The notes under the pieces were generated by a model, which did not search any database, was not told the origin of the DNA, and was given only the letters and a program-made list of their open reading frames with translations. Positions 20,407 to 37,833 of a stretch of DNA of 64,000 nt are shown one piece after another. Within the stretch, counting starts at the first letter, position 1; each line of letters opens with the position of its first letter. This DNA is from Planctomyces sp. (GTDB taxonomy: Bacteria; Planctomycetota; Planctomycetia; Planctomycetales; Planctomycetaceae): the NCBI GenBank assembly GCA_016795105.1, contig JAEUIH010000011.1, positions 1 to 64,000 on the forward strand, read 5' to 3'. The position numbers were made by a program, and so were the translations under genes.

Positions 20407-20508
20407 GTAGGATGGGCATTCCTGCCCGTCACACCCCCGCTCTCCGTAGGATGGGCATTCCTGCCCGTCACGCCCCCGCTCTCCGTAGGATGGGCATTCC
20501 TGCCCGTC
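20407..20508 (+). repeat. Three tandem copies of a GGGCATTCCTGCCC repeat
   Basis: A 39-bp period starting at 20407, 20446 and 20485. Each copy carries GTAGGATGGGCATTCC followed by TGCCCGTC. The core GGGCA-TTCC-TGCCC is an inverted repeat able to form a short hairpin. The same core occurs in the opposite orientation at 37671-37817. The near-identical spacers and lack of cas genes rule out a CRISPR array. Confidence 0.9.
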
Positions 20509-22533: not shown

Positions 22534-22895
22534 TGAACACCCCCATCAATTTCATTGAGAAACTCAGCAAATTCCAGGATCAGTGGTCACCGAAAGTCAT
22601 CGCCGAACTCAATGACTATCAATTCAAACTTGTCAAAGTCCAGGGGGAGTTTGTCTGGCATGAACATGCGGAAACAGACGAAGCATTCATCGTCCTGGCT
22701 GGCCGATTGAAAATCGAACTCCCGGAATCGACTGTCGAATTAACTGCGGGGGAATTGTACGTGGTGCCGCGCGGAATCCAGCATAAACCATCAGCGGAAC
22801 AGGAGTGCCATGTGCTGGTAATCGAGCCACGCGGCGTCGTCAACACCGGCAACATCGGTGGCGACATGACCGCTCCGAACGATGTGTGGCTCTGA
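22530..22895 (+). CDS. Single-domain cupin protein
   Basis: A 121-residue cupin. Cupin motif 1 appears as WHEHAETDEAFIVLAGRLKI and motif 2 as LYVVPRGIQHKPSAE, with the metal-binding His and Glu residues in place. It is the third gene of the regulator-GNAT-cupin operon and begins at an ATG overlapping the GNAT stop. It is followed 1 nt later by a truncated osmC remnant, so the operon was probably longer. Confidence 0.9.
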   Translation: MMNTPINFIEKLSKFQDQWSPKVIAELNDYQFKLVKVQGEFVWHEHAETDEAFIVLAGRLKIELPESTVELTAGELYVVPRGIQHKPSAEQECHVLVIEPRGVVNTGNIGGDMTAPNDVWL

Positions 22896-22896
22896 C

Positions 22897-23034
22897 ATGG
22901 TTTTCACTGACAAGCGTTACAGTCGTGCACATTCATGGCAGTTCGATGGCGGTCGCACAGTGCCTGCGTCGTCTTCGCCGCACATCGTTCCGCTTCCGTT
23001 CTCTGATGAGTCAGCAGTGGATCGCCGCCGCTAA
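22897..23034 (+). pseudogene. 5' fragment of an OsmC-family gene
   Basis: An ATG 1 nt after the cupin stop opens 45 codons that translate to FTDKRYSRAHSWQFDGG, TVPASSSPHIVPLPFSDE and AVD, the conserved N-terminus of OsmC-family peroxiredoxins found in such operons. The match stops after AVD, where intact proteins continue with PEEAFVASLSSCH; here the frame ends within four codons. The remaining two thirds, including both reactive Cys residues, are absent. The break coincides with the start of the DinB fragment in another frame. Confidence 0.75.
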
Positions 23035-23260
23035 CTATCAGGAGAGCGACTGGGAATCATTGGTGGAACTTTGGTATCACTACAATCGGCTGATTGCAGT
23101 ACTCATTCGCAATATGCGAGAGGCCAGCTTGTCGACGCGATGTACTATCACACCGTACGAAACATGCAAACTTGCATTCCTCGTGAGGGACTACCTGGAT
23201 CACATGAAACACCACCTCAATAAAATTGCTGATCGCGCCCTAAAGACAAAAGCGATATAA
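23018..23260 (+). pseudogene. 3' fragment of a DinB-family gene
   Basis: From about 23018, in the frame +1 to the OsmC remnant, the sequence translates to SLVELWYHYNRLIAVLIRNM, TITPYETCKLAFLVRDYLDH and MKHHLNKI, the C-terminal half of a DinB-type four-helix protein. No start codon or N-terminal helices with the first metal ligand are present. Together with the OsmC fragment this reads as the product of a deletion that joined two neighbouring genes. Confidence 0.7.
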
Positions 23261-23473
23261 CCTGGATATTCACACCCTGCCGCATGTAGCCCACGAACAG
23301 TGCTTCATCGCCGCCCTGGTGAAAACGGATGTCCGCTGTGAATCGGTACTATAGCTTTCTGACATTTCGTGCAGGTCACTGCGGGTTGTTCCGTCGATTG
23401 GAATCCAGATGTTCAGGCCAGCAGCCCGGAGGGCTGACACATCGCGATTCTTGCATGCTCGTGCTCTGCAAAG
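23261..23473. other. Degenerate segment between dinB fragment and group II intron
   Basis: About 210 nt with no intact gene. It contains the palindrome CAGCCC-GGA-GGGCTG at 23422-23436. On the minus strand a frame gives ADIRFHQGGDEALFVGYMRQ, which looks protein-like and might be a gene remnant, but I cannot assign it. On the minus strand this is the 3' flank of the group II intron. Confidence 0.45.
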
Positions 23474-24306
23474 ATAGGGGTAGGGAGGACCAATTGATTT
23501 TGGCCCCCCTCCCTCCGAACCGGACTGGCAGATTTCCCGCATCCGGCTCTCCGGTTGATGGTCTTACCTTCGTGAGGATTAACCGACTGACATGTGGGCG
23601 GTCACGAGACTGTACAGCCCGAGGTCAGTGAAGGAGCGATTTGCCTCCTTCCACTCCGTTTAGCAGAGTCGTCAACATGCGTAATGTCCAGACGCACGGT
23701 TTCGCGGTCGGCCACACAGGGTGTGGGACTTCGTCTCCGGCATGTTGAGCCACTGGCACTGACGCCGGTGTGGGTTCCGTTTGTCTGTTCATGACACCTT
23801 CCATCTTCCTGGAACCCTTCGCTCCCCTGGAGTTACCCAGCTTCAACGCTACTATGGCTCCTCTGACTTCTGCCCGGCGGCTCTTCGCATCCACACTGCG
23901 GCTGACGTCTTTCGACCGCCGTCTCGGACGATGAACACCGGTCTCTCCGGACAGATCTCTTTGCTTTATGAATCAAACCTTCCGGACGTTCCGACTCCAA
24001 CCACCCCCTGCCGCCCGAGACACCATGAGTTTGTGTTTTATGTCTCGGTCTAACCACGGATCACTGGTTTCACGCAGTGACCGGTCCTTTCGGGACTCTG
24101 TATGGCACTTCGGCTTCGCCATTAGCTAGCAGGCTCGCCGCGACAACAGGCCGAATCGAGTTCACTTGCGTTTCGGACCGCCCATTCGCCTTCCAATGCT
24201 CTCCACCCCGCCTCGCGGCGACGCAGTTTTGGTCAGCTACAGTTTCAAACTCTAACCTCCTGACGGGGACTTGCACCCCGCTGATTTGATTCACTCGCAA
24301 ACGCAC
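23474..24306 (-). mobile_element. Group II intron with most of its reverse transcriptase deleted
   Basis: Read on the minus strand, the element starts with the intron consensus GTGCG at 24306, continues through domain I features (for example GGGGTGCAAGTCCCC near 24275) and a truncated intron-encoded protein, and ends with a domain V-like hairpin at 23549-23517 (GAGCCGGATGCGG-GAAA loop and complementary arm ending GTCCGGTTC) and a domain VI-like stem up to CCCCTAT at 23474. Domain V is 33 nt, one less than usual, with the AGC triad kept. The total of 833 nt is about a third of a complete intron. The 5' junction lies in the last base step of a hairpin repeat arm. Confidence 0.8.
23625..23804 (-). 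pseudogene. Remnant of group II intron-encoded reverse transcriptase/maturase
   Basis: A 59-codon frame begins MEGVMNRQTEPTPAS and contains CVWTLRMLTTLLNGVEGGK. This matches the N-terminal leader of intron-encoded proteins of the type VWTxRMLTALExGVKGGKW. The frame stops five residues later, where an intact protein would continue into the reverse transcriptase domain. The YADD motif, maturase and any endonuclease domain are missing. About 75 nt later the sequence reaches domain V, so the loss is one deletion inside domain IV. Confidence 0.75.
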
Positions 24307-24403
24307 TAGCAGGCACTCTCCGAGTGCCGTTCGCAACGCGTGCCCCTGCGTTTCCAACCTATCTGGAACTCAAAGCGGACGGCAGACGGAGTCTGCCTGC
24401 TAC
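24307..24403. repeat. GTAGCAGGCA hairpin repeat element, copy 1
   Basis: Two inverted arms flank a 40-nt spacer. The left arm is 24307-24334 and the right arm, read on the minus strand, is 24403-24375. Each arm reads (G)TAGCAGGCA, a hairpin GGCANNN-TCC-N'N'N'TGCC, then CGTYCGC. The left arm lacks its first G because the group II intron is inserted there. The spacer begins AACGCG, as in the copy at 34122-34200. The right arm supplies the TAG stop of the TSUP gene. Confidence 0.85.
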
Positions 24404-25191
24404 AGTAAAAACTCGCGAGTGAAGTACCAGGTTGTGAGGACGAGGCCGATTCCGATGACGACACGTCGGACAAGCTGTTTGTTCAGAGTTCTCGCCCATG
24501 CGGCGCCTGCCCATCCGCCGATCATGGCAGAGACGATCATGGGGACTGCATAACGCCAGTCGACAACTCCCTGCCAGACAAAGATGACCACCGAAACTCC
24601 GTTGATGAGCGAGGCAAGAATCGTTTTCAGGCCGTTGACGTGATGGATATTTCCGATGTGCAGCATGCTGAGCGAACTGAGCATGAGAATTCCTATCCCT
24701 GCACCGAAGTAGCCACCATAGATGCCAATGAGCAGCTGCAGGGCAAAGACGATCCACCGGTATTCGGCGGATCGGCTGGAGAAGTCCTGTCCGGCCGGGC
24801 TGGCGCGGACGAGTTTTGGCTGCAGGATGAACAAGACAGTGGCCAACCCGATGAGCCACGGCACCATTGCCTTGAAAGAGGATTCCGGCGACCAGACAAC
24901 GATTAGTGAGCCGACGACTCCGCCCACAATACTGGGGATCGCCAGCCAGCGAGCCCAGTCGAGAATTTGATTCAGTTCGCGGCGATAGGCCCAGGTTCCG
25001 GTCACTGAACCAGGACACAATGCCACAGTGTTCGTAGCGTTCGCGACAATAGCGGCCCCGGGAGCGTTTCCCAGCACCAGCATGAGTGCCGGAAAGGTAA
25101 TCAACGTACCGCCACCTGCAATCGAATTGATCGCTCCACCCAGAGCTGCTGCCGGACACAGAACCAAACAGGCTTCCCACCACGTCCACAT
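24400..25191 (-). CDS. TSUP-family (TauE/SafE) membrane transporter
   Basis: A 263-residue integral membrane protein of the sulfite exporter TauE/SafE family. About seven or eight hydrophobic segments are visible, starting with ACLVLCPAAALGGAINSIAG. The family hallmark GGGTLITFPALM follows, and a second half-repeat contains IGIYGGYFGAGIGILML. Members export sulfite, sulfoacetate or other organosulfur anions; the substrate here cannot be inferred. It lies 27 nt after the amidohydrolase gene. Its TAG stop is formed by the end of the hairpin repeat element, so the original C-terminus may have differed by a few residues. Confidence 0.92.
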   Translation of the reverse strand: MWTWWEACLVLCPAAALGGAINSIAGGGTLITFPALMLVLGNAPGAAIVANATNTVALCPGSVTGTWAYRRELNQILDWARWLAIPSIVGGVVGSLIVVWSPESSFKAMVPWLIGLATVLFILQPKLVRASPAGQDFSSRSAEYRWIVFALQLLIGIYGGYFGAGIGILMLSSLSMLHIGNIHHVNGLKTILASLINGVSVVIFVWQGVVDWRYAVPMIVSAMIGGWAGAAWARTLNKQLVRRVVIGIGLVLTTWYFTREFLL

Positions 25192-25218
25192 GATTCATTC
25201 AGTTTCGTTCGTAGTGTT

Positions 25219-26952
25219 TTATTCGGGCTGTGATTTTTCATAAACAACCTGACCACCCAGCCATGTTTGCTCCACGGTGATGGAACGAATCTCATCAACC
25301 GGACATGTCAGGTAATCTCTGTCGATCACAATAAAGTCGGCCAGCTTACCGGCCTCGAGTGATCCCTTTTCGTGTTCCTCAAACGTCAGCCACGCGTTGT
25401 TGATTGTATAGAATCGAAGCGCCTGTTCGCGTGTCACGATCTGTTCAGGGTGAAGTGGCTGATCAGTCCAGCGAGGCAGTCGAGTGAGCATCGTCCAGAG
25501 TCCCAGAAAAGGGTTGTACGGATTGACTGACCTAAGGCTGCCAATCTTCTGCATGTGGTCCGAACCACCGCCGACCATGACTCCCTCTTCAAACAGTGTC
25601 TTATATGGCTGAAACCATGTCAGGCGTTCATTGCCAAACTGTCGATGCAGAGTCTTCCCGTCGAGATACAGCCAGACTGGCTGAATGTCAGCGACGATCC
25701 CCAGTTGTTTCATGGACTCAATCGCCTCTTCACTCATGAAGTTGCAGTGAGTAATGCACGGGCGGCGATCTTTGACCGGCAGCTCTTCATTGACTCGTCG
25801 ATAAGCATCGATCAGTGTGTGAACGGCTCCGTCTCCGACAGCGTGAGCAGTGATCTGCAGGTCGTTTTGCAGGCAAAGCCGAGCGACTTCGAAGAGTCTT
25901 TCAGGTTCGATGTTGAGGACTCCCCGATAGTCCGGGTCATTGATAGAGTAGATTGTGCTGACACCCCAGGGCTTTCGCATATATGCACTGCCCGTGAGCA
26001 TACCGCCATCCAGAAATACCTTCACGCCTCGTACCCAGAGCATGTTATTGTACTCGTGAGCCGGATGTCTGGCGGCAGTGAGAATCTGTTCAGACACATC
26101 CTTCCATTCACCGGTCGGGTTGATACCCCAGCAGAGAAATGTGCGACAGGTCAACTGTTTGTCATCCAGAAGGCTCTGAAACAGCTGAACGGCCGACTCA
26201 TCGGCGCTGCGCTGCACGATGCTGGTGATACCGGAAGCGTTGTAGTCGGCGAGCAGCTTTCGAAGTGCTTCTTTCTGCTGAGTCGCATCCGGATTTCGAT
26301 CTGGATTGTCCGTCTTGATGAATCGACCAGCACTGCGGATGATTCCGTTGGGCTCACCAGTTTCAGGGTCGGTTTCAATTCGGCCCGGCTGGCCGTCGGT
26401 GATTCGAAAATCTTTGTCGATGCCGCATAACTTCAGTGCCAGAGAGTTGAGGGCAGCATCAGGGCCTGTTCGAAATGCAACCGGGTTGTTGGGAGCAACT
26501 TCATCGAGCTCCCATCGTGTTGGAAATCTTTGATCGCGGAGTCGGGTCACAAAGACCTGGTTCAGCAGGATCCACTGGCCGTCTTCCAGCGAGTCGGCTC
26601 GCCGACGGACGTACTCCAGCACATCGGTGATGGTTTCCATTTCCGGAATCGGATGGTCGAATTCGTAGACCGCAGCTCCCGTCGCATGGACGTGTGAATC
26701 AATCAGTCCAGGAAGTATCATCTTCCCGAGCAGATCAATTTTCCGGGTCGTCGGTACCGCCAGTTTTTGAACGTCGGAGTCACTTCCAGCCAGAACAATG
26801 CGGTCACCGCGGATTGCTAATGCTGTTGCGATTGTGAACTGCTGGTCTACCGTAACGATGCGGCCGCCGGTGAAGATGACATCCGGCGGCTGAGCAGCGA
26901 TGGATGAGGTGAAGAACACCAAAGTGAGGCAGATCAGCACGAGGTTCTTCAT
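25219..26952 (-). CDS. Exported amidohydrolase (YtcJ-like)
   Basis: A metal-dependent hydrolase of 577 residues with a signal peptide (MKNLVLICLTLVFFTSSIAAQ). The amidohydrolase metal motif is in LPGLIDSHVHATG near residue 85, and further ligands probably include those in LQITAHAVGDGAVH and the SDHM segment. YtcJ-like proteins hydrolyse amide or ester bonds of small molecules; this one is probably periplasmic. It lies 39 nt after the zinc-ribbon gene and 27 nt before the TSUP gene, all on the minus strand, compatible with one operon. Confidence 0.9.
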   Translation of the reverse strand: MKNLVLICLTLVFFTSSIAAQPPDVIFTGGRIVTVDQQFTIATALAIRGDRIVLAGSDSDVQKLAVPTTRKIDLLGKMILPGLIDSHVHATGAAVYEFDHPIPEMETITDVLEYVRRRADSLEDGQWILLNQVFVTRLRDQRFPTRWELDEVAPNNPVAFRTGPDAALNSLALKLCGIDKDFRITDGQPGRIETDPETGEPNGIIRSAGRFIKTDNPDRNPDATQQKEALRKLLADYNASGITSIVQRSADESAVQLFQSLLDDKQLTCRTFLCWGINPTGEWKDVSEQILTAARHPAHEYNNMLWVRGVKVFLDGGMLTGSAYMRKPWGVSTIYSINDPDYRGVLNIEPERLFEVARLCLQNDLQITAHAVGDGAVHTLIDAYRRVNEELPVKDRRPCITHCNFMSEEAIESMKQLGIVADIQPVWLYLDGKTLHRQFGNERLTWFQPYKTLFEEGVMVGGGSDHMQKIGSLRSVNPYNPFLGLWTMLTRLPRWTDQPLHPEQIVTREQALRFYTINNAWLTFEEHEKGSLEAGKLADFIVIDRDYLTCPVDEIRSITVEQTWLGGQVVYEKSQPE

Positions 26953-26991
26953 GGTATCGAGCTTTGTGGGGCGTTTCGTATTAAGCGGTGT

Positions 26992-28329
26992 TCAATTTTG
27001 TACGAGGGCAAACAGACCGCCAATTCCCATCACAGCAGCCGCCACGGCAAAGAAGATCTTCCACGCACTATATGGGCGTTCGCCCTGAACTTCACCTGTC
27101 GCCGCGTTGATGAAGATTTGATAGGTCTTTCCGTGATAGCGATAGGCCATCAGCCACGTTGGAAGCAGGAGGTGTTTGAAAGTGATCGCTTCGTATCGAC
27201 TGCGAACATCATCAACCTGTTGCGTATCACCACCGATCCGTGCACGGACTTCCGCATGAATGGCAGAGACGATTCTGTCTTTGGCATCGCCGAAGCTCTG
27301 ATCAAGCTCGATGTCGTATGTTCGAGCCAGAAAGCCAGCGAGCATTTCCTGCTTAAAGGGGATGACCAGATTGAGTGGCCATGGTTCGAGAGCAAGCATA
27401 TAGTCGCGGCGAAGGCCTGTGTTTGCCAGCACCAGCACATCATCAAAAAATCTCTGAAATGCGCCGGAAGCGGGATACCAGCGAGTCCGTCGTTCCTGCC
27501 GACGATTTTTGCCAGTCCCGACGGTCACGTAATAGTACTCGCCCCTCTTCCCGGTGTAGCTGTTGAAGGTCAGCGAATCGAATGTGAAGTATGAGAGATA
27601 GATGCCACTGAACTTTCCTTCGGCGCCCTGCTTTCGGAAGTTATTGGGCGCAAACCAGCGAGATGCAACCCATTGGGCGAGGTTCTGTTTGGCGCGATTT
27701 CTATCGACCTGGAATGGCAATACACCGTCAACCGGAATCCGATCTTCGTCGCTCTTATGAGCCTTCTCCAGCTGAACCGGCGCATTGCAGTACGGACAGT
27801 GGGTACTTGTCAGTGTGCCGATAAACTCGACATTACCACCACAGGATTCGCACCGGATTTCTTTGCGATCTTCTTTGTTTCCCGGGTCGGCTTCTTCGGG
27901 ATGATTTTTCTTTCGAGCTTCTCGCAGTTCGCGGATTCTCATCAGCATGTGATGAAAATCCTGCTCCACCAGCATCGCCTCAGCTTCCTGATGAATCTCC
28001 TTCACATGCCCGCACCACGGGCACTTCAGCGATTGCTGGCCGATATGAAATTCAAGATCTCCGCCGCAGTTTTCGCACGGGAAGACGCGTCCCTTCCCGT
28101 CATCAAACGTGCGACCGGCGTCAACAGTCGTCGCACCTCGATTATGGTCTCCAGGCTCGCCGTCTTTAATGAACTGATCATCACCAACGGGGTCTCCATT
28201 GGTCACGGGAGATCCGCTATTCACGGACCGACCACCATTTTGTGGTGGGGAAGAGTTGTCCACGGCTTCGAACGCCGAAGCCGGGACTTCTTCGATGGAC
28301 TTGCCCTGCAGTCTCCGCGGGTCGCTCAT
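26992..28329 (-). CDS. TFIIB-type zinc-ribbon membrane protein (YdjG-like)
   Basis: A 445-residue protein with two zinc ribbons: CENCGG...CPWCGH near residues 85-108 and CESCGG...CPYCNA near 158-180. A long middle domain follows, and a single C-terminal transmembrane helix (AWKIFFAVAAAVMGIGGLFALV). The layout resembles Bacillus subtilis YdjG, which works with the SPFH protein YdjI in a PspA membrane-stress system. Here the adjacent upstream gene encodes an SPFH protein, supporting the comparison, but no PspA gene is in the window. The Ser/Gly-rich first 70 residues look disordered. Confidence 0.85.
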   Translation of the reverse strand: MSDPRRLQGKSIEEVPASAFEAVDNSSPPQNGGRSVNSGSPVTNGDPVGDDQFIKDGEPGDHNRGATTVDAGRTFDDGKGRVFPCENCGGDLEFHIGQQSLKCPWCGHVKEIHQEAEAMLVEQDFHHMLMRIRELREARKKNHPEEADPGNKEDRKEIRCESCGGNVEFIGTLTSTHCPYCNAPVQLEKAHKSDEDRIPVDGVLPFQVDRNRAKQNLAQWVASRWFAPNNFRKQGAEGKFSGIYLSYFTFDSLTFNSYTGKRGEYYYVTVGTGKNRRQERRTRWYPASGAFQRFFDDVLVLANTGLRRDYMLALEPWPLNLVIPFKQEMLAGFLARTYDIELDQSFGDAKDRIVSAIHAEVRARIGGDTQQVDDVRSRYEAITFKHLLLPTWLMAYRYHGKTYQIFINAATGEVQGERPYSAWKIFFAVAAAVMGIGGLFALVQN

Positions 28330-28398
28330 AAGGACATTTACCCTGTGGTAATGGTCTGGACAATGCCGCCCTGTCTTACCGATCTCCGCAGAACCGGA

Positions 28399-29505
28399 TT
28401 ATGGAGCCGGCGGTGCTGGAGGTGGCGGAGGAGTTGGTGGACCGAACACCGCGGCGAGCTGTGGCACCTGCGCTGCCGCCAGCCAGTTAGGCATTCCTGC
28501 ACACCATACCAGGGTTTGGCGGTTCACTTGTCCTGCTGCAACTCCCGCGGCCAGCTGCTCGGCAGAAAATGGGCCGGTTGCCTGACCGTTCACTGCCACA
28601 TGCCATGCAGCGGGAGGTGCCGGAGGTGCTACACCCGGCATTCCGGCCGAAGCGCCCGGCTGCATCATTCGTCCAGCCATGGCAACACCAAGTCCAAGAC
28701 CGAGGCCCTCAGAAGCGCCACCGCCAGGGTTTGCTGCTGCTGTTGTGAGCGCCTGTCCCATCTGATACTGCTGATACTTATCCATATCGCCGATGACACC
28801 CATACTCGTTCGTGTATCCAGTGCCTTTTCGACAGCTTCAGGCAATGAGATATTTACGATCATCAGCTGAGGAATCATCAGGCCATATTCGTCGTCGATT
28901 CGCTCCTGAACGGCTTTGCGAAGAGTCTCACCGAACTGCTGGTACTTGCTGGCAAGATCCAGAGCGGCAACATTTGATGTCCCCAGTACATCTGCAAGCG
29001 TACTGATGATGATCGATCGAAGCAGCTCCGTAACTTCGTCTGCATCGAATTCACTGTCGGTTCCGACCAGTTCCTTGAGCAGTATTTTTGCATCGTTGGC
29101 CTTAACCGCATATGTACCAAACGCCCGAATTCGGATTGGCCCGAACTCCGGATCTCGCAACATAATCGGGTTCGGGGTTCCCCACTTCAGATCCGTAATC
29201 TGCTTCGTGCTGACAAAGTAGACCTCTGATCGAAATGGGCTGTTGAATCCATACTTCCACCCTGCAATTGTGCTGAGAAGCGGAAGATTGTCTGTCTTGA
29301 GTTCGTAGTGGCCAGGTTCGAACATATCGGCAATCTGACCACGGTGGACCATGACAGCCACCTGACCCGGGCGAACAATCAGCTGTGCACCATTCTTGAT
29401 TTCATTCTGGTATCGAGGGAATCGCCAGACGATCGTGTGCCGCGAATCATCGACCCATTCAATAATGTCAATCAGTTCATTTCGCAGCTTGTCGAACAAA
29501 CCCAT
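28399..29505 (-). CDS. SPFH-domain protein with C-terminal GYF_2 domain (YdjI-like)
   Basis: A 368-residue protein. The SPFH/band-7 domain covers about residues 30-245 (IVRPGQVAVMVHRGQIAD, RIRAFGTYAVKANDAKILL and DEYGLMIPQLMIVNISLPEA). A Gly-rich linker follows, then a GYF_2 (DUF4339) domain at about 300-358 (WHVAVNGQATGPFSAEQLA and WCAGMPNWLAA), and a proline-rich tail. It has no obvious transmembrane segment. SPFH proteins scaffold membrane microdomains; with the zinc-ribbon gene 69 nt downstream it forms a YdjI/YdjG-like pair. The GYF_2 domain suggests proline-rich partner binding, possibly its own tail. Confidence 0.9.
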   Translation of the reverse strand: MGLFDKLRNELIDIIEWVDDSRHTIVWRFPRYQNEIKNGAQLIVRPGQVAVMVHRGQIADMFEPGHYELKTDNLPLLSTIAGWKYGFNSPFRSEVYFVSTKQITDLKWGTPNPIMLRDPEFGPIRIRAFGTYAVKANDAKILLKELVGTDSEFDADEVTELLRSIIISTLADVLGTSNVAALDLASKYQQFGETLRKAVQERIDDEYGLMIPQLMIVNISLPEAVEKALDTRTSMGVIGDMDKYQQYQMGQALTTAAANPGGGASEGLGLGLGVAMAGRMMQPGASAGMPGVAPPAPPAAWHVAVNGQATGPFSAEQLAAGVAAGQVNRQTLVWCAGMPNWLAAAQVPQLAAVFGPPTPPPPPAPPAP

Positions 29506-29670
29506 CGCGTGTCTCCACAGACTTTCTCAACTGGATGTAACGTCACAAAACGATCCACGAACCTTAAGTAGTCTACAACACTTCCGGCAGTTTCGACTAC
29601 TGATTCCGACCGCAGAAAAGGTTCGGACGATCGATCGAGGCGAGTTGAAACGAAATCTTCGTGTTTTGGA

Positions 29671-30759
29671 TCACGGTTCCGGCTCGCTTTTGGCAATTTT
29701 CCGGGATTTGTCCCACCAGAAGTCAAACACCACGATTCGATGGTCAGAGCCCATCTCCGGTAACACCGCCTGCCTGACTCCATTCAGGTCTTCACTACAC
29801 AGCCCATGGTCGAGCATCAGGCCAAACGGAAACGCTCGACGCGCATACCACGTGGGAGTTAGTCCAGTGCCGGCGGATGCGTTTTTCAGCCCGGCATCTC
29901 GACAAAAATCATCAAATACAGGAGACCACGGAGTGAGATTCAGGTCACCGACCAGAATTGTATCCGCAGGCGACTCGGTGACGGGTTTGCGAATCACGTT
30001 GGCCAGCATTCTGAGTTGTGAGTTCCGCATCTGGAATCCTCGTCGAAACATTGGTGGCACCGGATGAGTTGCAATCACTCGAACCGATCGGCCCTCAAAC
30101 TCAACCTGAGCCTGAATCGACGGCAGCCAGGGAGTTTCAAAATCGAAAACCTCGGGGGACGTGAGAGGCAAACGCGACAGCAAACCAATTCCAAAGTTGC
30201 CGTCCGACTGAGGTTGCCAGACACTTGCCGGGTACTCGTCACTCAACTCCCCCTTCATGCGTTCCATGAGTTCCGGAGTCAGCTCGAGAACGGCTACGAT
30301 ATCAGCATCCGAGTCCCGGATTTGGTCTATGATCTCCTGGTGTCGATGATTTGAAGACAGGACATTCGCCGTACAGACTCTCAGGCACTGACGCCTCTCA
30401 ATGATCGCACTTTGGCTATTGCCTCCGGAGGTGTCCCAGACTGCCGAAAGGCACCACCAGGCATGGCAGAAGCCCAAAACCAGGGCGGCAACTCCATGCC
30501 GATAGCGATGCACAGCGAAAGAAAACAAGGCCACACTCGAAGCCATCAGGATCAGCTGAACTCGCAGGTTGGCCAGAATGTCGGCGGCCCACCACGATCG
30601 AGCAAACAGAGACACGCCCAACGCCATTGCGCAAGCCAGACAAAGCGGCCAGACCAGGCCTGAAAGCAGCGCCAGAACGAATCGTGCAGAAAGCAGCGTC
30701 AGAACGAATCGGCCGCATTTCTTTACATCAGTACTCACGCGGCTGATACTCCAGACCAC
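29671..30759 (-). CDS. Membrane-anchored endonuclease/exonuclease/phosphatase family protein
   Basis: A 362-residue protein with three N-terminal hydrophobic segments in residues about 15-100, followed by an EEP (DNase I-like) domain. Motifs include VCTANVLSSNHRHQEI, DIVAVLELTPE (catalytic Glu), THPVPP, ILVGDLNLTPWS and GSDHRIVVFDFWW (His-Asp pair). The substrate could be a phosphodiester in a lipid, sugar or nucleic acid. In the first membrane segment a 27-bp imperfect direct duplication (30662-30684 and 30689-30711) encodes the repeated FVLxLLS pattern. The gene is 165 nt upstream of the SPFH gene. Confidence 0.87.
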   Translation of the reverse strand: MVWSISRVSTDVKKCGRFVLTLLSARFVLALLSGLVWPLCLACAMALGVSLFARSWWAADILANLRVQLILMASSVALFSFAVHRYRHGVAALVLGFCHAWWCLSAVWDTSGGNSQSAIIERRQCLRVCTANVLSSNHRHQEIIDQIRDSDADIVAVLELTPELMERMKGELSDEYPASVWQPQSDGNFGIGLLSRLPLTSPEVFDFETPWLPSIQAQVEFEGRSVRVIATHPVPPMFRRGFQMRNSQLRMLANVIRKPVTESPADTILVGDLNLTPWSPVFDDFCRDAGLKNASAGTGLTPTWYARRAFPFGLMLDHGLCSEDLNGVRQAVLPEMGSDHRIVVFDFWWDKSRKIAKSEPEP

Positions 30760-30909
30760 TTTGTCAGAGGTTTCTCACTCTGCTGCACGATTTTTCCTCG
30801 GCCATCGCTGGCAACACGTGCCGGATTGCCGACAATCCCGTTTTCTGCAGTTCATTCGCTGGAACGCAGCATTCCAGCAGTCCCCCGAGGAAACAAAGGC
30901 AGTCGTTTC

Positions 30910-31365
30910 ATGGTTCTCGATCTTTCAGGATGCCTTCAGCATTATGATAACCACGGCATCTTTTTTGAGTATCCTGACATCTGGGAAATCACCGAGGAGA
31001 TCGAACCGGACGGGGATGTGCTGATCACTGTGAGTGCCGACGGAGCCTGTTTTTGGGCAATTCGGATTCTCGCCTCAAGCCCGGCACCGCCGGATGTCGT
31101 CGGTTCCTGTGTATCCGCGTTTCAGGAAGAATACGAAGACGTGGACGAGTATCCATCCAGTGGACAACTGGCTCAAATGCCGGCATATGGTCGAGATCTG
31201 GAATTTTCGTGCTTCGAACTGCTGAATACCGTGTCTTTGAAGAGTGTTCGAGGTCCGGAGTTTACAATTCTGGTGTGGTGGCAGGGGACCGATCACGAAC
31301 TTGGCGATGTTCGCCCAGTCTTCGAACAGATTACAAGTACTGTTCGCATCAAGAAACTGATGTAG
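30910..31365 (+). CDS. Hypothetical protein with PsbP/DUF1795-like look
   Basis: A 151-residue protein from the ATG at 30910; the frame is open further upstream only from a TTG at 30826. The segment GIFFEYPDIWEITEEIEPDG, followed by alternating beta strands and VFEQITSTVRI at the C-terminus, resembles proteins of the PsbP or DUF1795 fold, which often start with a similar YPxxW motif. There is no signal peptide. It lies 57 nt upstream of trpE on the same strand. The family assignment is tentative. Confidence 0.65.
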   Translation: MVLDLSGCLQHYDNHGIFFEYPDIWEITEEIEPDGDVLITVSADGACFWAIRILASSPAPPDVVGSCVSAFQEEYEDVDEYPSSGQLAQMPAYGRDLEFSCFELLNTVSLKSVRGPEFTILVWWQGTDHELGDVRPVFEQITSTVRIKKLM

Positions 31366-31422
31366 ACATACATACACACGACAAACGCATACACACAGAA
31401 CACAAGCATTCAGGACCTGAAG

Positions 31423-32967
31423 ATGTCACGCACAACCCTGCCGTCCGCGGAAGAATTTGCGGGCTACGCGCGGGAAGCTCGTTTTGTCCCCGTCTATCGT
31501 CAGCTGACCTCAGACACGCTGACTCCCGTGACTGCGTACCAGAGGATCTCCGGAGGACAATGGGCCTTTCTTTTTGAAAGCGTTGTCGGCGGCGAACGAA
31601 TTGGCCGTTACAGCTTTGTTGGCTGTCAGCCATTTATGTCACTCACGGCCTCCGGTCGCACCGTGACAATCGAAGAAAGCGGGAGTGTTGTTCGTACGTT
31701 TGAAAGCAGCGACCCGCTCAAGGATCTGGATCAGCTGGTTCAGCAGTTTCGATCTGTATCGATCCCTGGATTGCCAGGGTTCAGTGGCGGGGCTGTTGGC
31801 TATGCCGCCTATGACGTGATCCGTTATACCGAAAACCTGCCGAATGTGCCGGCCGATGATCGTGGTGTGCCGGACATGTGCTTTGCTTTGTTTGATTCCA
31901 TGATCGTATTTGATCATATCCGCAAAGTGACGCTGGTGATTTGTCTCGCAGATACTCAGGGTCAAAGTCTCAACGATGCGAGAAATAAAGCCGAAACACG
32001 AATTGATGAGCTTTGTCAGCGGCTTGCTCAAACTTCCGGCTCATCGTCTGGTACAGGGCAAACTTCGAAGCCTGTACCTGAAGAAGTTCGCCTGACGGAT
32101 ATCGATCTAACCGTCGAGCCGAAGTTCGAAGTCGCATCGAACTTCACAGAACCCGAATTTATCTCGGCCGTTGACCGATGTCGCGAATACATCAAAGCGG
32201 GCGATATTTTCCAGGTGGTGATCAGCCAGCGATTTCGTCATCGCAGTTCAGCAACACCCCTGGACGTTTATCGCTCGCTCCGAATGGTCAACCCAAGTCC
32301 ATTTATGTTTCTGTTACGTACGCCCTCTGTAAATCTGGTTGGCAGCAGTCCGGAGATTATGGTTCGAGTGGAAGACGGCGAAACCACCATTCGACCGCTC
32401 GCCGGAACTCGCCGACGCGGTGCCACCCCGCAGGAAGATCGAGCGCTTGCCGAGGAGCTTCTTTCGGATCCCAAAGAGCGGGCTGAGCACGTGATGCTGA
32501 TTGACCTGGCTCGCAATGATGTTGGCCGTGTGGCTCAGTTTGGTTCTGTTCAGCTGACGGATGTGATGGTGGTGGAACGCTACAGTCATGTGATGCACAT
32601 CACGTCAAATGTCAGTGGCATGCTGAAGCCGGGATTGTCAGCCGTGGAAGCTCTGCGTGCCGGTCTGCCGGCGGGAACGGTTTCCGGAGCACCGAAGGTT
32701 CGAGCGATGGAAGTCATCGACGAAGTTGAACCTCAGAAGCGAGGTCCCTACGGAGGAGCTGTGGGATATATTGACTTCACCGGCAATATGGATACCTGTA
32801 TTGCATTGCGGACGCTTGTTATGAAGGACGGAATCATTGATATTCAGGCCGGGGCAGGAATCGTTGCTGATAGTGTGCCGGCCATGGAGTATCAGGAAAC
32901 GATCAACAAGGCCCGAGCAATGCTGAAGGCCATTCATATTGCTGAAACTCAGCTGCATTCCTCATAA
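31423..32967 (+). CDS. trpE: Anthranilate synthase component I
   Basis: Converts chorismate and glutamine-derived ammonia to anthranilate, the first step of tryptophan synthesis. The 514-residue length fits TrpE. The N-terminal tryptophan-binding region includes [19 protein letters not shown]. The catalytic chorismate domain includes [69 protein letters not shown] and [12 protein letters not shown]. No trpG, trpD or trpC is adjacent, so the pathway genes are dispersed. No trp leader peptide or attenuator was recognised in the short upstream gap. Confidence 0.96.
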
Positions 32968-33061
32968 AGGTGCCACTCAACGTTTAGGTTTCTTTCCACA
33001 TTAAGGTCTCCGCAAAAACTCCGGGGCTGGTTCACAAGAATGGCCTCCAGGGAAAACTGAA

Positions 33062-34120
33062 ATGGTGTCAGTCTGGTCAGAACTTCGTGGTCACTCAGGT
33101 CAGCGCGAACTGTTTCAGCGTTCGATCGCGCGAGGACGACTGTCTCATGCCTACGTGCTAACCGGTCCCGAAGGAATTGGGAAGCTGCAGTTTGCACGTT
33201 TGCTGGCGAAGTCACTTTTCTGCCGAGAGCGAACTCCGGAGCAGGTCGATGCATGTGGTGAGTGCCGAGCCTGTCGGAGTTTTGATGTCGCAAGCTGGCC
33301 GGATTACTATGAGATTCGCTGCCCGGACGGGAAAACAGAAATCCCAATTGACCTGCTGATTGGCTCTCCGGAAAAACGCGGCCGCGAAGGGATGTGCTTC
33401 GAACTTGCAATGTCGCCTCAGGCCTCGCTCCGCAGAATTGCGGTGATCAATGATGCTCAGCTGCTGAACGATGCGGGGGCAAACGCCATTCTTAAGACGC
33501 TGGAAGAACCGCCAGCCGAAGCACTCATGATTTTGATCTGTAACAACCCTGATGCTCTCCTGCCAACCATCCGTTCACGCTGTCAGATCATTCGTTTCTT
33601 TCCACTGCCTGATCAGGACGTTGCCGAATTGCTCGTTCATCTAAACCACGTGGAAGATAACGAAGAGGCGAAGACGATTGCGTCGATGTCTGAGGGAAGC
33701 CTTGCGGTCGCAGGCCAGCTGCTGAACCCGGACCTTCGAAATCTGCGAAATGCAATCGTTGAGCAGTTGTCGAAACTTGAAAAGATGCAACCGCTCGTGC
33801 TCGCAGATCATGTCGCCGATGAACTCGAACGCTTCTCTTCCAGCGTTGAAGATCAGCGGCGAAACGCCCGATGGCTGCTCCGCTTTGCTTCCGATTTTCT
33901 TCGCGAGCGACTGCACCACCTCGCGAAAGGTGATCTTTCGGACGCACTCACTCAGAGACTCGGTGTTCGAATCGGCGTTGATCTTCTCAGCCCAATGCTG
34001 GATCGAGTCATTCAGGCAAATAATCTGATAGACGCTAATTCGCCAGTCCGCCTTGTACTCGAAACCACCTTCGATGATCTCGCCAGACAACTCCGCATTG
34101 GCCCCATAACAGCGCGTTAA
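33062..34120 (+). CDS. holB: DNA polymerase III delta' subunit-like clamp-loader ATPase
   Basis: A 352-residue AAA+ clamp-loader protein. Visible are HAYVLTGPEGIGKLQFARL (P-loop, near residue 37), the four-Cys zinc module with CGECRAC near 65, the DEAD-like region replaced by IAVINDAQLLNDAGANAILK, and the SRC motif in TIRSRCQIIRF. It works in the cytoplasm to load the sliding clamp. Its length and the lack of DnaX C-terminal domains favour delta'. The stop lies 1 nt before the hairpin repeat element, and it converges with the M56 gene. Confidence 0.9.
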   Translation: MVSVWSELRGHSGQRELFQRSIARGRLSHAYVLTGPEGIGKLQFARLLAKSLFCRERTPEQVDACGECRACRSFDVASWPDYYEIRCPDGKTEIPIDLLIGSPEKRGREGMCFELAMSPQASLRRIAVINDAQLLNDAGANAILKTLEEPPAEALMILICNNPDALLPTIRSRCQIIRFFPLPDQDVAELLVHLNHVEDNEEAKTIASMSEGSLAVAGQLLNPDLRNLRNAIVEQLSKLEKMQPLVLADHVADELERFSSSVEDQRRNARWLLRFASDFLRERLHHLAKGDLSDALTQRLGVRIGVDLLSPMLDRVIQANNLIDANSPVRLVLETTFDDLARQLRIGPITAR

Positions 34121-34121
34121 A

Positions 34122-34200
34122 GTAGCAGGCACATTCCATGTGCCGTCCGCAACGCGGTAGCAGTGCGGTAGGCGGACGGCATTCGGAGAATGCCTGCTAC
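34122..34200. repeat. GTAGCAGGCA hairpin repeat element, copy 2
   Basis: A complete element that exactly fills the gap between the convergent holB and M56 genes. Arm 34122-34150 and the inverted arm 34200-34172 (each 29 nt) flank a 21-nt spacer beginning AACGCGG. Each arm has its own hairpin (GGCACAT-TCC-ATGTGCC and GGCATTC-TCC-GAATGCC). The two arms can also pair with each other through the shared ends. The right end supplies the TAG stop of the M56 gene. A bidirectional terminator role is likely but inferred. Confidence 0.9.
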
Positions 34201-37106
34201 TTTCGAATCGGCCTCGGATGGGCGACTTCGATTTCGTGAATGCTGATTGGGGCGCTGTTCGTGAGCTGGATGCTCACCCAGATACTTCCACGAGGCGGTA
34301 CTCCTTGCTGAAGTGATGATGGCTGCTGATATTTCACCAGAAATTCTCCGGGCCCTGACTGTTCTGCAGTGGAAGGCCAGTCTGAAGGCCAATCGACCGG
34401 ATCACTGCTCAGAAGACTATGTCGCACGGGCCGGACAATCGCTTCCTGCACTGGATAGCCGTTTTGATCAAACACAGAAAACTGCAGGGCGTGAAAGCCA
34501 TCGTCTGTCTGTTGTGGAAAGATCGCGGGTTCCACAGGCGCACTGGATTTTCGCATGGTCAGTTGAATGCGTTCCTTTCTGCCTGGAACAATATTCGCCA
34601 CAAACGTATCGATACCTGCGATGTAGTGAATGTTTGGCACAAGCAAATAGCCGGGAAGTACGCACTGAACCAGTTCAGAAGCAGCCGGCAGGTTTTTGAT
34701 GACTGCCCTGCCGTGTGCGTCTGAAAGGCGAGTCCATGTAAAACTCGAGGTCTTTGTTCGATGGAATCCCCCGGAAGACTCGTGACTGGGTTCCATGCTG
34801 ACGAGGTAGTCAATGGAGCGAAGAGTGGAGTTCAGTGGGATGCTTCCATTCCGAGTCACCCGACACGGGCTTATGTAAATCATCGCATCCGGTAGCGGAT
34901 TGCCGGACGTATCGACGACTTCAAACTCGATCGTCCCGGACTGAGCCATCTGCAGAGAGATCGAGACGGGCTGATCTTCGATACGAACAGGAGTGGAAAC
35001 GAAGGATCCAGGCTGAGAGAACTGTGAAAAGTTAGTACCGAATTCCTGATCGTATGTATGATGCATTTCTGTGGACGGTTGCGAAATCCAGCCATCGATG
35101 ATGGCCGAGACTTCCACATGCGAATTAGGCGGGAGAGATTCAAACGAGAACGTTCCTTCGGGAGTGACTTCCGTCACATCCTGCCAGCTGATTCCACTGC
35201 CGTTCCCACCTTCTCTGATTGCCGCGACGACATATCCACCGGCTGCAATGGGCCGTGGGACATTTTGAGAAAGTGCACCACTCAGTGAAACACCGGGTGC
35301 AACCGAAATCGTTGGCGAAAGGACTCTGGATTCTGTAGGCAGTGTGGCTGCGTCAATCATACTGCTGAAACGAAGATCAAGGCGATCCGCAGGAACATGG
35401 ACGATTCGGAAATACCTGTTCGCCCCGTCGGTGTTTCCCATCAGGCCCGATCGCAGCCGTCCTTCTTTCATTGTCCACTCTAAGCGAGGATAGCCACTCG
35501 AAATCGCATACAGACCAGACTGCAGTTCCTGCCCGTCCGGATCAAGAACAACGGGTTCAATGACGTGACCGGCACTCAGCACGATTGGCGCAGTATCCCT
35601 GACAAAATGCGTTGGCCGGTGTTCTGCGGCAAACTCGGGATGCTCTACTGTGAAGGACAGGAAGGTGATTTGTCCTGTCTCTCGGGGAATTGCATTGAGT
35701 TGTTCAGTTGATAACTCGATGGAGGCCACTCCTTCGCGATTCGTGCTGTAATGTGCGGGCCAGACCCCATTCAGCCATGACCACCCAACTCCGTTTCCGG
35801 TTCCAAAGCCAGTGGGGGAGATCGTCGCGTTGGTCACTGGCTTACCGGATTGATCAATCACTTTCAGTTCGTGAACGAATGGCCCCTTCGATCGCGGCTC
35901 TGTGAATTCGGGTGATGAGTTCTCCGGAATAAATTCTGTTGGAGGTGGAGGCAGCGGTAATTCGTCGGATTCTTCAGCCACTCCGATTACAGGCTGCACC
36001 ATGCAAAGACCACAGGCAACGCATGTGACCGCGATCATAAGTATCGCAAGGCTCCTGCGACGAAGCGGAACATGAGAACGAAGTACGTCAGAATTCAAAA
36101 TCGAACGAACTCGCTGCTCCAGTGTTCCCCGACGTGAAACCTCCGCGATGGCAAACCCCAGACCGGGGCCAAGAGAATCAAGAGCCAGTGTTCTCAGTTC
36201 TTCAGCATAGCGAATGGGGGACACGCCGCAGCAGACCACAAGATCATCGCATGCATATTCCTGCTCTCTGCGGAGTTGATGCAGCCCCAGCCAGGCAAGT
36301 GGGTGAAACCAGAACAGGATCACAGAGAATTGAGAGAGCGTCTGTGTCAGTGTGTCGAATCGACGAATATGGGCCAGTTCATGGATCAAAACCGCTTCGA
36401 GGCGAGATTCCGGCCACTGAACTGCTGACGCCGGCAGCACAATGCATGGTCGAAACAGTCCTGCGGTGATGGGGACAATATTCCCGGTGTGCATTCGAAT
36501 CGATGGTGTAAACGACAGGTTGAGTCGGCTCGCCAGGCGTCCCATTAGAGTCCGAATCGAGTGGTCTGTAGCGGTTGTCGTTGTCCGAACAAAGCTCCAC
36601 GTGCGAAAGAGACCAATTAGCAACCGAACTGACAGCAGAACACACCCAAGGAACCAGATCGTTGACAAGACCGAATCGAGGCTGGGAAAGGGTGCTGATT
36701 TTTGAAGCTGCGAAGCCGTCGTGGCTGGTATCACAGGCTGCCGGAGAAAATGGTTAGGGGGTTGAGCAGACGAGACAGCAGGCCGCAGGACCGGAGTCAA
36801 TTCAGAACCCGATTCTGAGGTGATCAAGCCGATCTCAGATTCTGAAGTTTGTGGATGATCGGCTTCAATGAGCTCTTCTGGAGCGTACGGTTGCGGTGAC
36901 GAGATTGATAGCGTTGGCTGCCAGATTGGTGGAAGGAGTCCGGATGCGGGAACCAACAGTGGCAAACAGATCAGGCTGATCGCCCAGATCGCATGTCGCA
37001 CTGCGGCGGAGCGCCGCGACAGAAGTTGCGAGATGATCGCCACACAGGTGAGGACCAGCGTTGCGCGAGCGAGTACCATCCATGGAATTTCGTGATCGAG
37101 AATCAT
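34197..37106 (-). CDS. M56-family (BlaR1-type) membrane metallopeptidase with Ig-like sensor domains
   Basis: A 969-residue signal-transducing protease. Three N-terminal transmembrane segments (about residues 10-30, 38-58 and 150-172) precede the zinc motif HELAH at 242-246, and a fourth follows near 345-365 (LAILMIAVTCVACGLCMVQP). The exterior part, residues 370-969, lacks the penicillin-binding domain of BlaR1 and instead has several carboxypeptidase-regulatory-like units (VIDQSGKPVTNATISPTG, VVDTSGNPLPDAMIYIS and VFDQNGYPVQEAIVRPV). The start overlaps the BlaI-type gene stop by 4 nt. The family cleaves its cognate repressor in response to an external signal; the signal here is unknown. Confidence 0.9.
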   Translation of the reverse strand: MILDHEIPWMVLARATLVLTCVAIISQLLSRRSAAVRHAIWAISLICLPLLVPASGLLPPIWQPTLSISSPQPYAPEELIEADHPQTSESEIGLITSESGSELTPVLRPAVSSAQPPNHFLRQPVIPATTASQLQKSAPFPSLDSVLSTIWFLGCVLLSVRLLIGLFRTWSFVRTTTTATDHSIRTLMGRLASRLNLSFTPSIRMHTGNIVPITAGLFRPCIVLPASAVQWPESRLEAVLIHELAHIRRFDTLTQTLSQFSVILFWFHPLAWLGLHQLRREQEYACDDLVVCCGVSPIRYAEELRTLALDSLGPGLGFAIAEVSRRGTLEQRVRSILNSDVLRSHVPLRRRSLAILMIAVTCVACGLCMVQPVIGVAEESDELPLPPPPTEFIPENSSPEFTEPRSKGPFVHELKVIDQSGKPVTNATISPTGFGTGNGVGWSWLNGVWPAHYSTNREGVASIELSTEQLNAIPRETGQITFLSFTVEHPEFAAEHRPTHFVRDTAPIVLSAGHVIEPVVLDPDGQELQSGLYAISSGYPRLEWTMKEGRLRSGLMGNTDGANRYFRIVHVPADRLDLRFSSMIDAATLPTESRVLSPTISVAPGVSLSGALSQNVPRPIAAGGYVVAAIREGGNGSGISWQDVTEVTPEGTFSFESLPPNSHVEVSAIIDGWISQPSTEMHHTYDQEFGTNFSQFSQPGSFVSTPVRIEDQPVSISLQMAQSGTIEFEVVDTSGNPLPDAMIYISPCRVTRNGSIPLNSTLRSIDYLVSMEPSHESSGGFHRTKTSSFTWTRLSDAHGRAVIKNLPAASELVQCVLPGYLLVPNIHYIAGIDTFVANIVPGRKERIQLTMRKSSAPVEPAIFPQQTDDGFHALQFSVFDQNGYPVQEAIVRPVRHSLLSSDPVDWPSDWPSTAEQSGPGEFLVKYQQPSSLQQGVPPRGSIWVSIQLTNSAPISIHEIEVAHPRPIRK

Positions 37107-37610: not shown

Positions 37611-37833
37611 GTAGCTTGGGCATTCCTGCCCGAGCCGCTGCTGGGCTGAACTGGCGCCGAACCAGTGCGGGACGGGCAGGAATGCCCATCCTACATTTGA
37701 TCCAGTGCGGGACGGGCAGGAATTGCCCATCCTACGATTTGAACCAGTGCGGGACGGGCAGGAATGCCCATCCTACATTTGAACCAGTGCGGCGACGGGC
37801 AGGAATGCCCATCCTACGATTTGAAACTGGGTG
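37611..37833 (-). repeat. Cluster of GGGCATTCCTGCCC repeats
   Basis: One copy in plus orientation (37611-37634) and four in minus orientation (37671-37694, 37711-37735, 37753-37776, 37794-37817), the latter spaced 40-42 nt apart with similar spacers containing GAACCAGTGCGG. The third copy has an extra T in the core. The same 24-nt core is found at 20407-20508. The array lies between the BlaI promoter and argG. Confidence 0.9.

Follow-up and report, generated by a model that had tools for sequence, protein, structure and literature searches.

Paired REP hairpins with exchangeable stems, probably spread by a RAYT transposase, in a Planctomyces genome

Two palindromic elements in the window (the whole 64,000-nucleotide stretch of Planctomyces sp. 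DNA that was analysed) are very probably REPINs, paired REP hairpins that owe their spread to a RAYT working on single-stranded DNA. Both are inverted pairs of a 29-nt arm, GTAGCAGGCA-NNN-TCC-N'N'N'-TGCCGTCCGC (Table 1). The initial annotation had described these four arms with perfectly paired stem triplets, and direct reading of the sequence bears this out: all four triplets (CTC/GAG, GAC/GTC, CAT/ATG and TTC/GAA) are Watson-Crick paired. It had also given every arm the same (G)TAG start, which has to be corrected, as the GTAG foot is present in three of the four arms and the first begins with CTAG; the tail of the other three arms is CGTCCGC. Among sampled copies with flanks from the same genome (hereafter the own genome), G precedes TAG in 120 of 128. 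The proposed common spacer start, AACGCG, does follow the CTC and CAT arms of the two elements but is absent from most other pairs in the genome. A single arm folds as a 7-bp hairpin with a TCC loop (−6.3 to −7.1 kcal/mol, DNA parameters), and a single long hairpin, in which the unlike triplets form bubbles, is another fold open to each element (−29.6 and −28.2 kcal/mol). The only zero-mismatch matches to GGCANNNTCCNNNTGCC in the window are the four arms; with up to two mismatches there are 23 matches compared with 21.9 expected by shuffling, so that the loose pattern alone is uninformative. A plasmid similarity search with positions 34100-34220 gave zero matches, and an Rfam search of the window at gathering thresholds gave nothing beyond one tRNA and one group II intron match.

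Table 1 Repeat features in the window
Feature	Class or sequence	Position	Strand	Basis or remark
REP arm, element 1	CTC/GAG, head CTAG, tail CGTTCGC	24306..24334	+	sequence; 7-bp hairpin
Spacer, element 1		24335..24374	.	spacers differ among copies
REP arm, element 1	GAC/GTC	24375..24403	-	sequence; hairpin folded 24376-24403
REP arm, element 2	CAT/ATG	34122..34150	+	sequence; hairpin
Spacer, element 2		34151..34171	.	spacers differ among copies
REP arm, element 2	TTC/GAA	34172..34200	-	sequence; hairpin folded 34173-34200
Second GTAG REP family, three direct copies, 39-bp period	GTAGGATGGGCATTCCTGCCCGTC	20407..20508	+	sequence matches
Second REP family, one copy at 37611	CTT/GAG	within 37611..37817	+	sequence matches
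Second REP family, copies 37671, 37753 and 37794, facing 37611	GAT/GTC	within 37611..37817	-	

These arms belong to a large family. With up to two mismatches, AGCAGGCANNNTCCNNNTGCCG has 463 matches (217 + 246) throughout the own genome, which spans 8.9 Mb in 391 contigs, compared with 5 (3 + 2) for the reversed pattern as a control; there are thus hundreds of copies, not merely two. A shorter REP pattern, allowing one mismatch, was used to scan 170 genomes of the family and was present in 47 of them, many of the genomes with one or two matches being at control level. Counts with this pattern were 445 in the own genome, 171 in G110, 124 in G001, 70 in G111, 51 in G140, 43 in G142 and 30 in G084, and zero in G012, a 100% complete genome of the same genus. 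In a scan of named genomes the matches listed came mostly from planctomycete-labelled contigs, with a few from Poribacteria. The contigs labelled Candidatus Poribacteria that carry the same REP (L074, L098, L110, L128, L137 and L143) may reflect either lateral spread or mis-binning. The arrangement of copies was followed in a 1.48-Mb sample of the own genome, made up of whole large contigs and of stretches picked for REPs or Y1 genes, with the window included, a choice that biases its REP density. In 47 clusters, neighbouring copies formed 43 head-outside, 26 head-to-head and 15 same-strand pairs, and where heads touched they were 3 nt apart in every case (26/26). Single arms and same-strand arrays also occur.

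Stem sequences in the own genome fall into a few copied classes and are not freely variable. Among 131 sampled copies, 43 were CAT/ATG, 27 GAC/GTC, 27 TTC/GAA and 21 CTC/GAG; of the 13 copies outside these four fixed classes, 3 were fully Watson-Crick paired, a G-T pair occurred in 4 and the remaining 6 were mismatched. Since 118 of the 131 copies belong to the four classes, the window displays four copied subfamilies and not four independent compensations. The claim of a compensatory change in every arm therefore overstates the number of independent events, although the underlying covariation holds across genomes. At 87 loci in named genomes, 139 of 150 copies had all three triplet positions paired, with nine pair types.

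Arms at RAYT loci, where 73 lie outside genes, gave a second view of the same pattern. We compared 26 arms that differ from one another within the first 24 bases, taken from the surroundings of RAYT genes for their foot and loop and joined by the CTC arm of the window (23 RAYT-locus arms, two of L169 and the window arm). Pairing was found in 95.2% of 208 cells compared with 65.0 in shuffles, with 52 two-sided changes compared with 11.8, and fell to 21-47% when the partner was slid as a control; the 8-bp frame had its outermost position unpaired in 9 of the 26 arms, those of the window REP family, whose stem is 7 bp. Counting the pairs in which both sides changed gave 7, a value that 34 of 500 shuffles reached, and this measure is weak. 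This set favours pairing because it omits 20 of 71 arms (8 distinct, from six loci; the 71 are counted without the two of L169) that pair at only 1-3 of 8 positions in a fixed register. With these restored and one extra base allowed in the eight, 34 distinct arms were 96.0% paired compared with 64.9 in shuffles, with 77 two-sided cells compared with 21.6; seven of the eight then paired at 8/8 positions and one at 7/8, while pairing over all 34 arms was 84.2% when the extra base was disallowed. Across genomes, the stem covaries strongly and GTAG and TCC stay constant.

The own genome has nine Y1_Tnp matches, two of them within one reading frame, and one RAYT-type gene (C42:175-834) runs directly into a REP, the TAG of which is its stop codon. 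The initial annotation's reading of a mobile, REP/BIME-like palindrome agrees both with the copy number and with this RAYT, which has matching ends. REPs lie at positions 831, 911 and 991 (+) and 1045 (-) of contig C42, on the downstream side of the gene alone; the contig starts 174 bp upstream, and that stretch contains none. The encoded protein matches Pfam Y1_Tnp at 27.6 bits (cut-off 23), and its best NCBIfam match is REP_Tyr_transpos (NF047646) at 63.6 bits, under the cut-off of 80. A profile of 26 homologues searched against the PDB had 4er8, 'TnpArep', as its top match (E = 7.1e-5); the same search with the single protein found no RAYT. Aligned homologues keep N135 (28/28), H136 (28/28), H138 (27/28) and Y196 (28/28), an N-H-x-H (HUH) motif together with a tyrosine predicted to be the catalytic one. 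A single-sequence structure prediction for the L061 homologue reached a pLDDT of 34 and was unusable.

The association of RAYT and REP recurs in relatives. At 30 RAYT loci (the best RAYT match per genome, from the own genome and 29 others of its family), GTAG-N9-TCC arms were found within 300 bp on both sides in 18, on one side in 2 and on neither in 10, the probability of any arm arising by chance being about 0.07 per locus. The one-sided loci are those of the own genome and G056, in which the upstream contig end is near, and at four of the ten loci lacking a GTAG arm, a scan that requires pairing found hairpins with GTGG or GTCG as their foot on either side of the gene. REPs lie on both sides of the RAYT at L146, L147, L150 and L061, and L169 also has arms on both sides. 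The L061 protein (MAG contig REEF01000269.1, 1-900) is 68% identical to that of the own genome and is encoded between copies of the window REP. The L061 reading frame itself does not stop at the downstream REP but crosses it, being out of frame with the TAG.

A dependence of the copies on a close RAYT within their own genome was not upheld. Five REP-rich genomes (G110, G111, G140, G142 and G084) lack a close C42-type RAYT: the best match is 36% identical in G110 and 39% identical, with two internal stops, in G111, and the other three are absent among the genomes with a C42-type match. In eight REP-bearing genomes with 80 Y1_Tnp matches, none of the 30 matches examined had the window REP in the stretch of flank covered.

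Each element is best described as a REPIN in which two inverted REP hairpins, with GTAG heads outside, enclose a free spacer. When single-stranded, an arm would form a 7-bp stem with a TCC loop beside an unpaired GTAG foot, and the C42 RAYT, an HUH/Y1 transposase, most likely reads foot and loop. We infer that it would then cut and rejoin single strands, would spread whole two-arm units and may serve all four stem classes. The initial annotation had left RNA and single-stranded DNA as alternatives for the selected hairpin; single-stranded DNA read by a RAYT seems to fit better. The combination of an unvarying foot and loop and a stem that is free as long as it is paired matches cutting data for REPtron Sm, in which loop changes or stem mismatches hurt cutting and swaps of stem sequence do so much less, according to the passages of PMC8266576 that describe it, and for this reason we take the elements to be REPINs moved by a RAYT. 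We stop short of full certainty because some REP-rich genomes lack a close RAYT, the family model score is under its cut-off and no insertion was caught by comparison with relatives, whose divergence is too great to leave a clean empty site.

REP-RAYT systems are already known, and such repeats are well known; what is added here is a well-populated example in planctomycete-type genomes. It is also a natural experiment, in which loop and foot are constant and the stem can change while it stays paired, that predicts what the transposase reads. R. baltica is a planctomycete. Di Nocera et al. 2013 (PMC3733652) name REPs in R. baltica, and in their text description, with which we compare (the consensuses of their Figure 1 aside), GTAG-tagged REPs resemble ours in the GTAG foot, the short stem with a 2-3-nt loop, the head-outside dimers, the clusters, the TAG stop codons supplied by REP ends and the division of families into subfamilies with alternative complementary stem residues. 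The parts of PMC8266576 on the Stenotrophomonas REPtron Sm (group 3 TnpAREP) describe a similar GTAG followed by a palindrome interrupted by 3 nt; that palindrome is perfect and 16 nt long, and its loop is GCT, whereas the loop here is TCC. The same source's account of E. coli BIMEs, the y-z1/y-z2 mosaics, offers a likeness in inverted pairs of two REP types and in tandem copies, but BIME stems need a bulge and the classes here are paired swaps in a plain stem. The inverted REP pair as a mobile unit is the REPIN as set out by Bertels and Rainey 2011 (PMC3116915), with similar wording in PMC3686654; unlike those REPINs, the arms here are mostly of different class.

That facing arms in the own genome almost always have different stems is its one unusual trait. 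When each class pair was allowed a single count per cluster, like arms occurred in 1 of 31 inward pairs compared with 8.05 expected (P = 0.00065), and same-strand neighbours were alike in 13 of 15 cases. A second GTAG family in the same genome, with the consensus GTAG-NNN-GGGCA-TTCC-TGCCC-N'N'N', behaves similarly. It has 755 matches (371 + 384) with up to one mismatch, seven of them in the window, and its own RAYT (G000:C350:342-857) with copies on both sides; its inward pairs were unlike in 20 of 20 cases (alike in 0, compared with 9.28 expected; P = 5e-5) and its same-strand neighbours alike in 61 of 69. Unlike arms are nevertheless no general rule, being contradicted by G111. There, over all 70 copies, 31 of 31 inward pairs were alike (16 CAT/CAT, 11 CAC/CAC and 4 CAC with a point mutant) and none paired CAT with CAC, the classes being assigned by eye. 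Pairs in G110 (50 of 171 places), G056 and G084 also look alike by eye among the matches listed, and those listed for G001 are by eye mixed, mostly CAT/CAT with some CAT with CTC. Common to all genomes compared is that the copied unit is the pair and not the single arm. A genome-specific pressure that enforces unlike arms across two REP families with separate RAYTs seems to us unlikely; candidates may be a nuclease active against long perfect palindromes, which it would remove, or a transposase with a need to distinguish the left arm from the right. Genomes with like and unlike arms together provide a simple handle on the copying of two-arm units.

Several arms sit at the 3' ends of genes. The TAG at 24402-24400 in the GAC/GTC arm is the stop codon of ORF 24400-25191, which we take to be TauE-like (NCBIfam PRK10621, 70.9 bits, under cut-off), and the TAG at 34199-34197 in the TTC/GAA arm that of a BlaR1-like ORF (34197-37106; 82.2 bits, under cut-off), so two of the four heads in the window are used as gene stop codons. 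The arm at 34122 starts 1 nt past the TAA (34118-34120) of a HolB-like ORF. For the window family, an open frame of 120 codons or longer is closed by the TAG of 15 of 52 outer heads, compared with 1 and 0 in the other frames, and for the second family by that of 15 of 52, compared with 1 and 3; heads were left out of the count if they lacked TAG, had a further REP on the head side no more than 250 bp away or lay within 1,500 bp of a segment end. For three genes ended by a REP TAG, presumably TauE, TruA and PrmC, the ends of orthologues lay no more than 3 amino acids from the end set by the REP in 10 of 12, 2 of 13 and 18 of 22 cases, respectively, and were mostly slightly later; matches came from 16, 22 and 24 other genomes, of which those that were weak, split or short were dropped. 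These comparisons addressed the candidate reading that REPs may insert precisely at a GTAG stop codon already in place. TAG stop codons from REP ends have already been described in the text of PMC3733652.

This position raises the alternative that the pairs act as intrinsic terminators of transcription or as hairpins for mRNA stability. The whole elements fold well as single strands (z = −6.6 and −7.0, DNA parameters), and side roles of this kind are credited to REPs in part of PMC3733652. We nonetheless consider it quite improbable as their primary nature, because a consensus scan of positions 24000-34500 found 7 terminator-like sites (8.9 expected by shuffling) and none at either element, contrary to the terminator role first suggested for them, and because tandem arrays and linkage to a RAYT are unexpected of terminators; a terminator role could be secondary. 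Host sites for a chromosome protein or nuclease, kept by host selection and not spread by transposition, would account for the many copies that persist in genomes lacking a close RAYT, but are very hard to reconcile with counts that range from 0 to 445 inside one family and with the absence of matches at up to one mismatch from the complete genome of the same genus. That the elements are MITEs belonging to some transposon with no relation to RAYT, as their shortness, many copies and inverted-repeat ends might suggest, is extremely improbable given the Y1 RAYT genes beside or between the same arms in several genomes and the occurrence of single arms and same-strand arrays.

About 750 bp from element 1, the group II intron match from Rfam lies at 23474-23551 on the reverse strand (54.5 bits). 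Since no ORF longer than 151 amino acids overlaps positions 22800-24300, it is probably an intron remnant.
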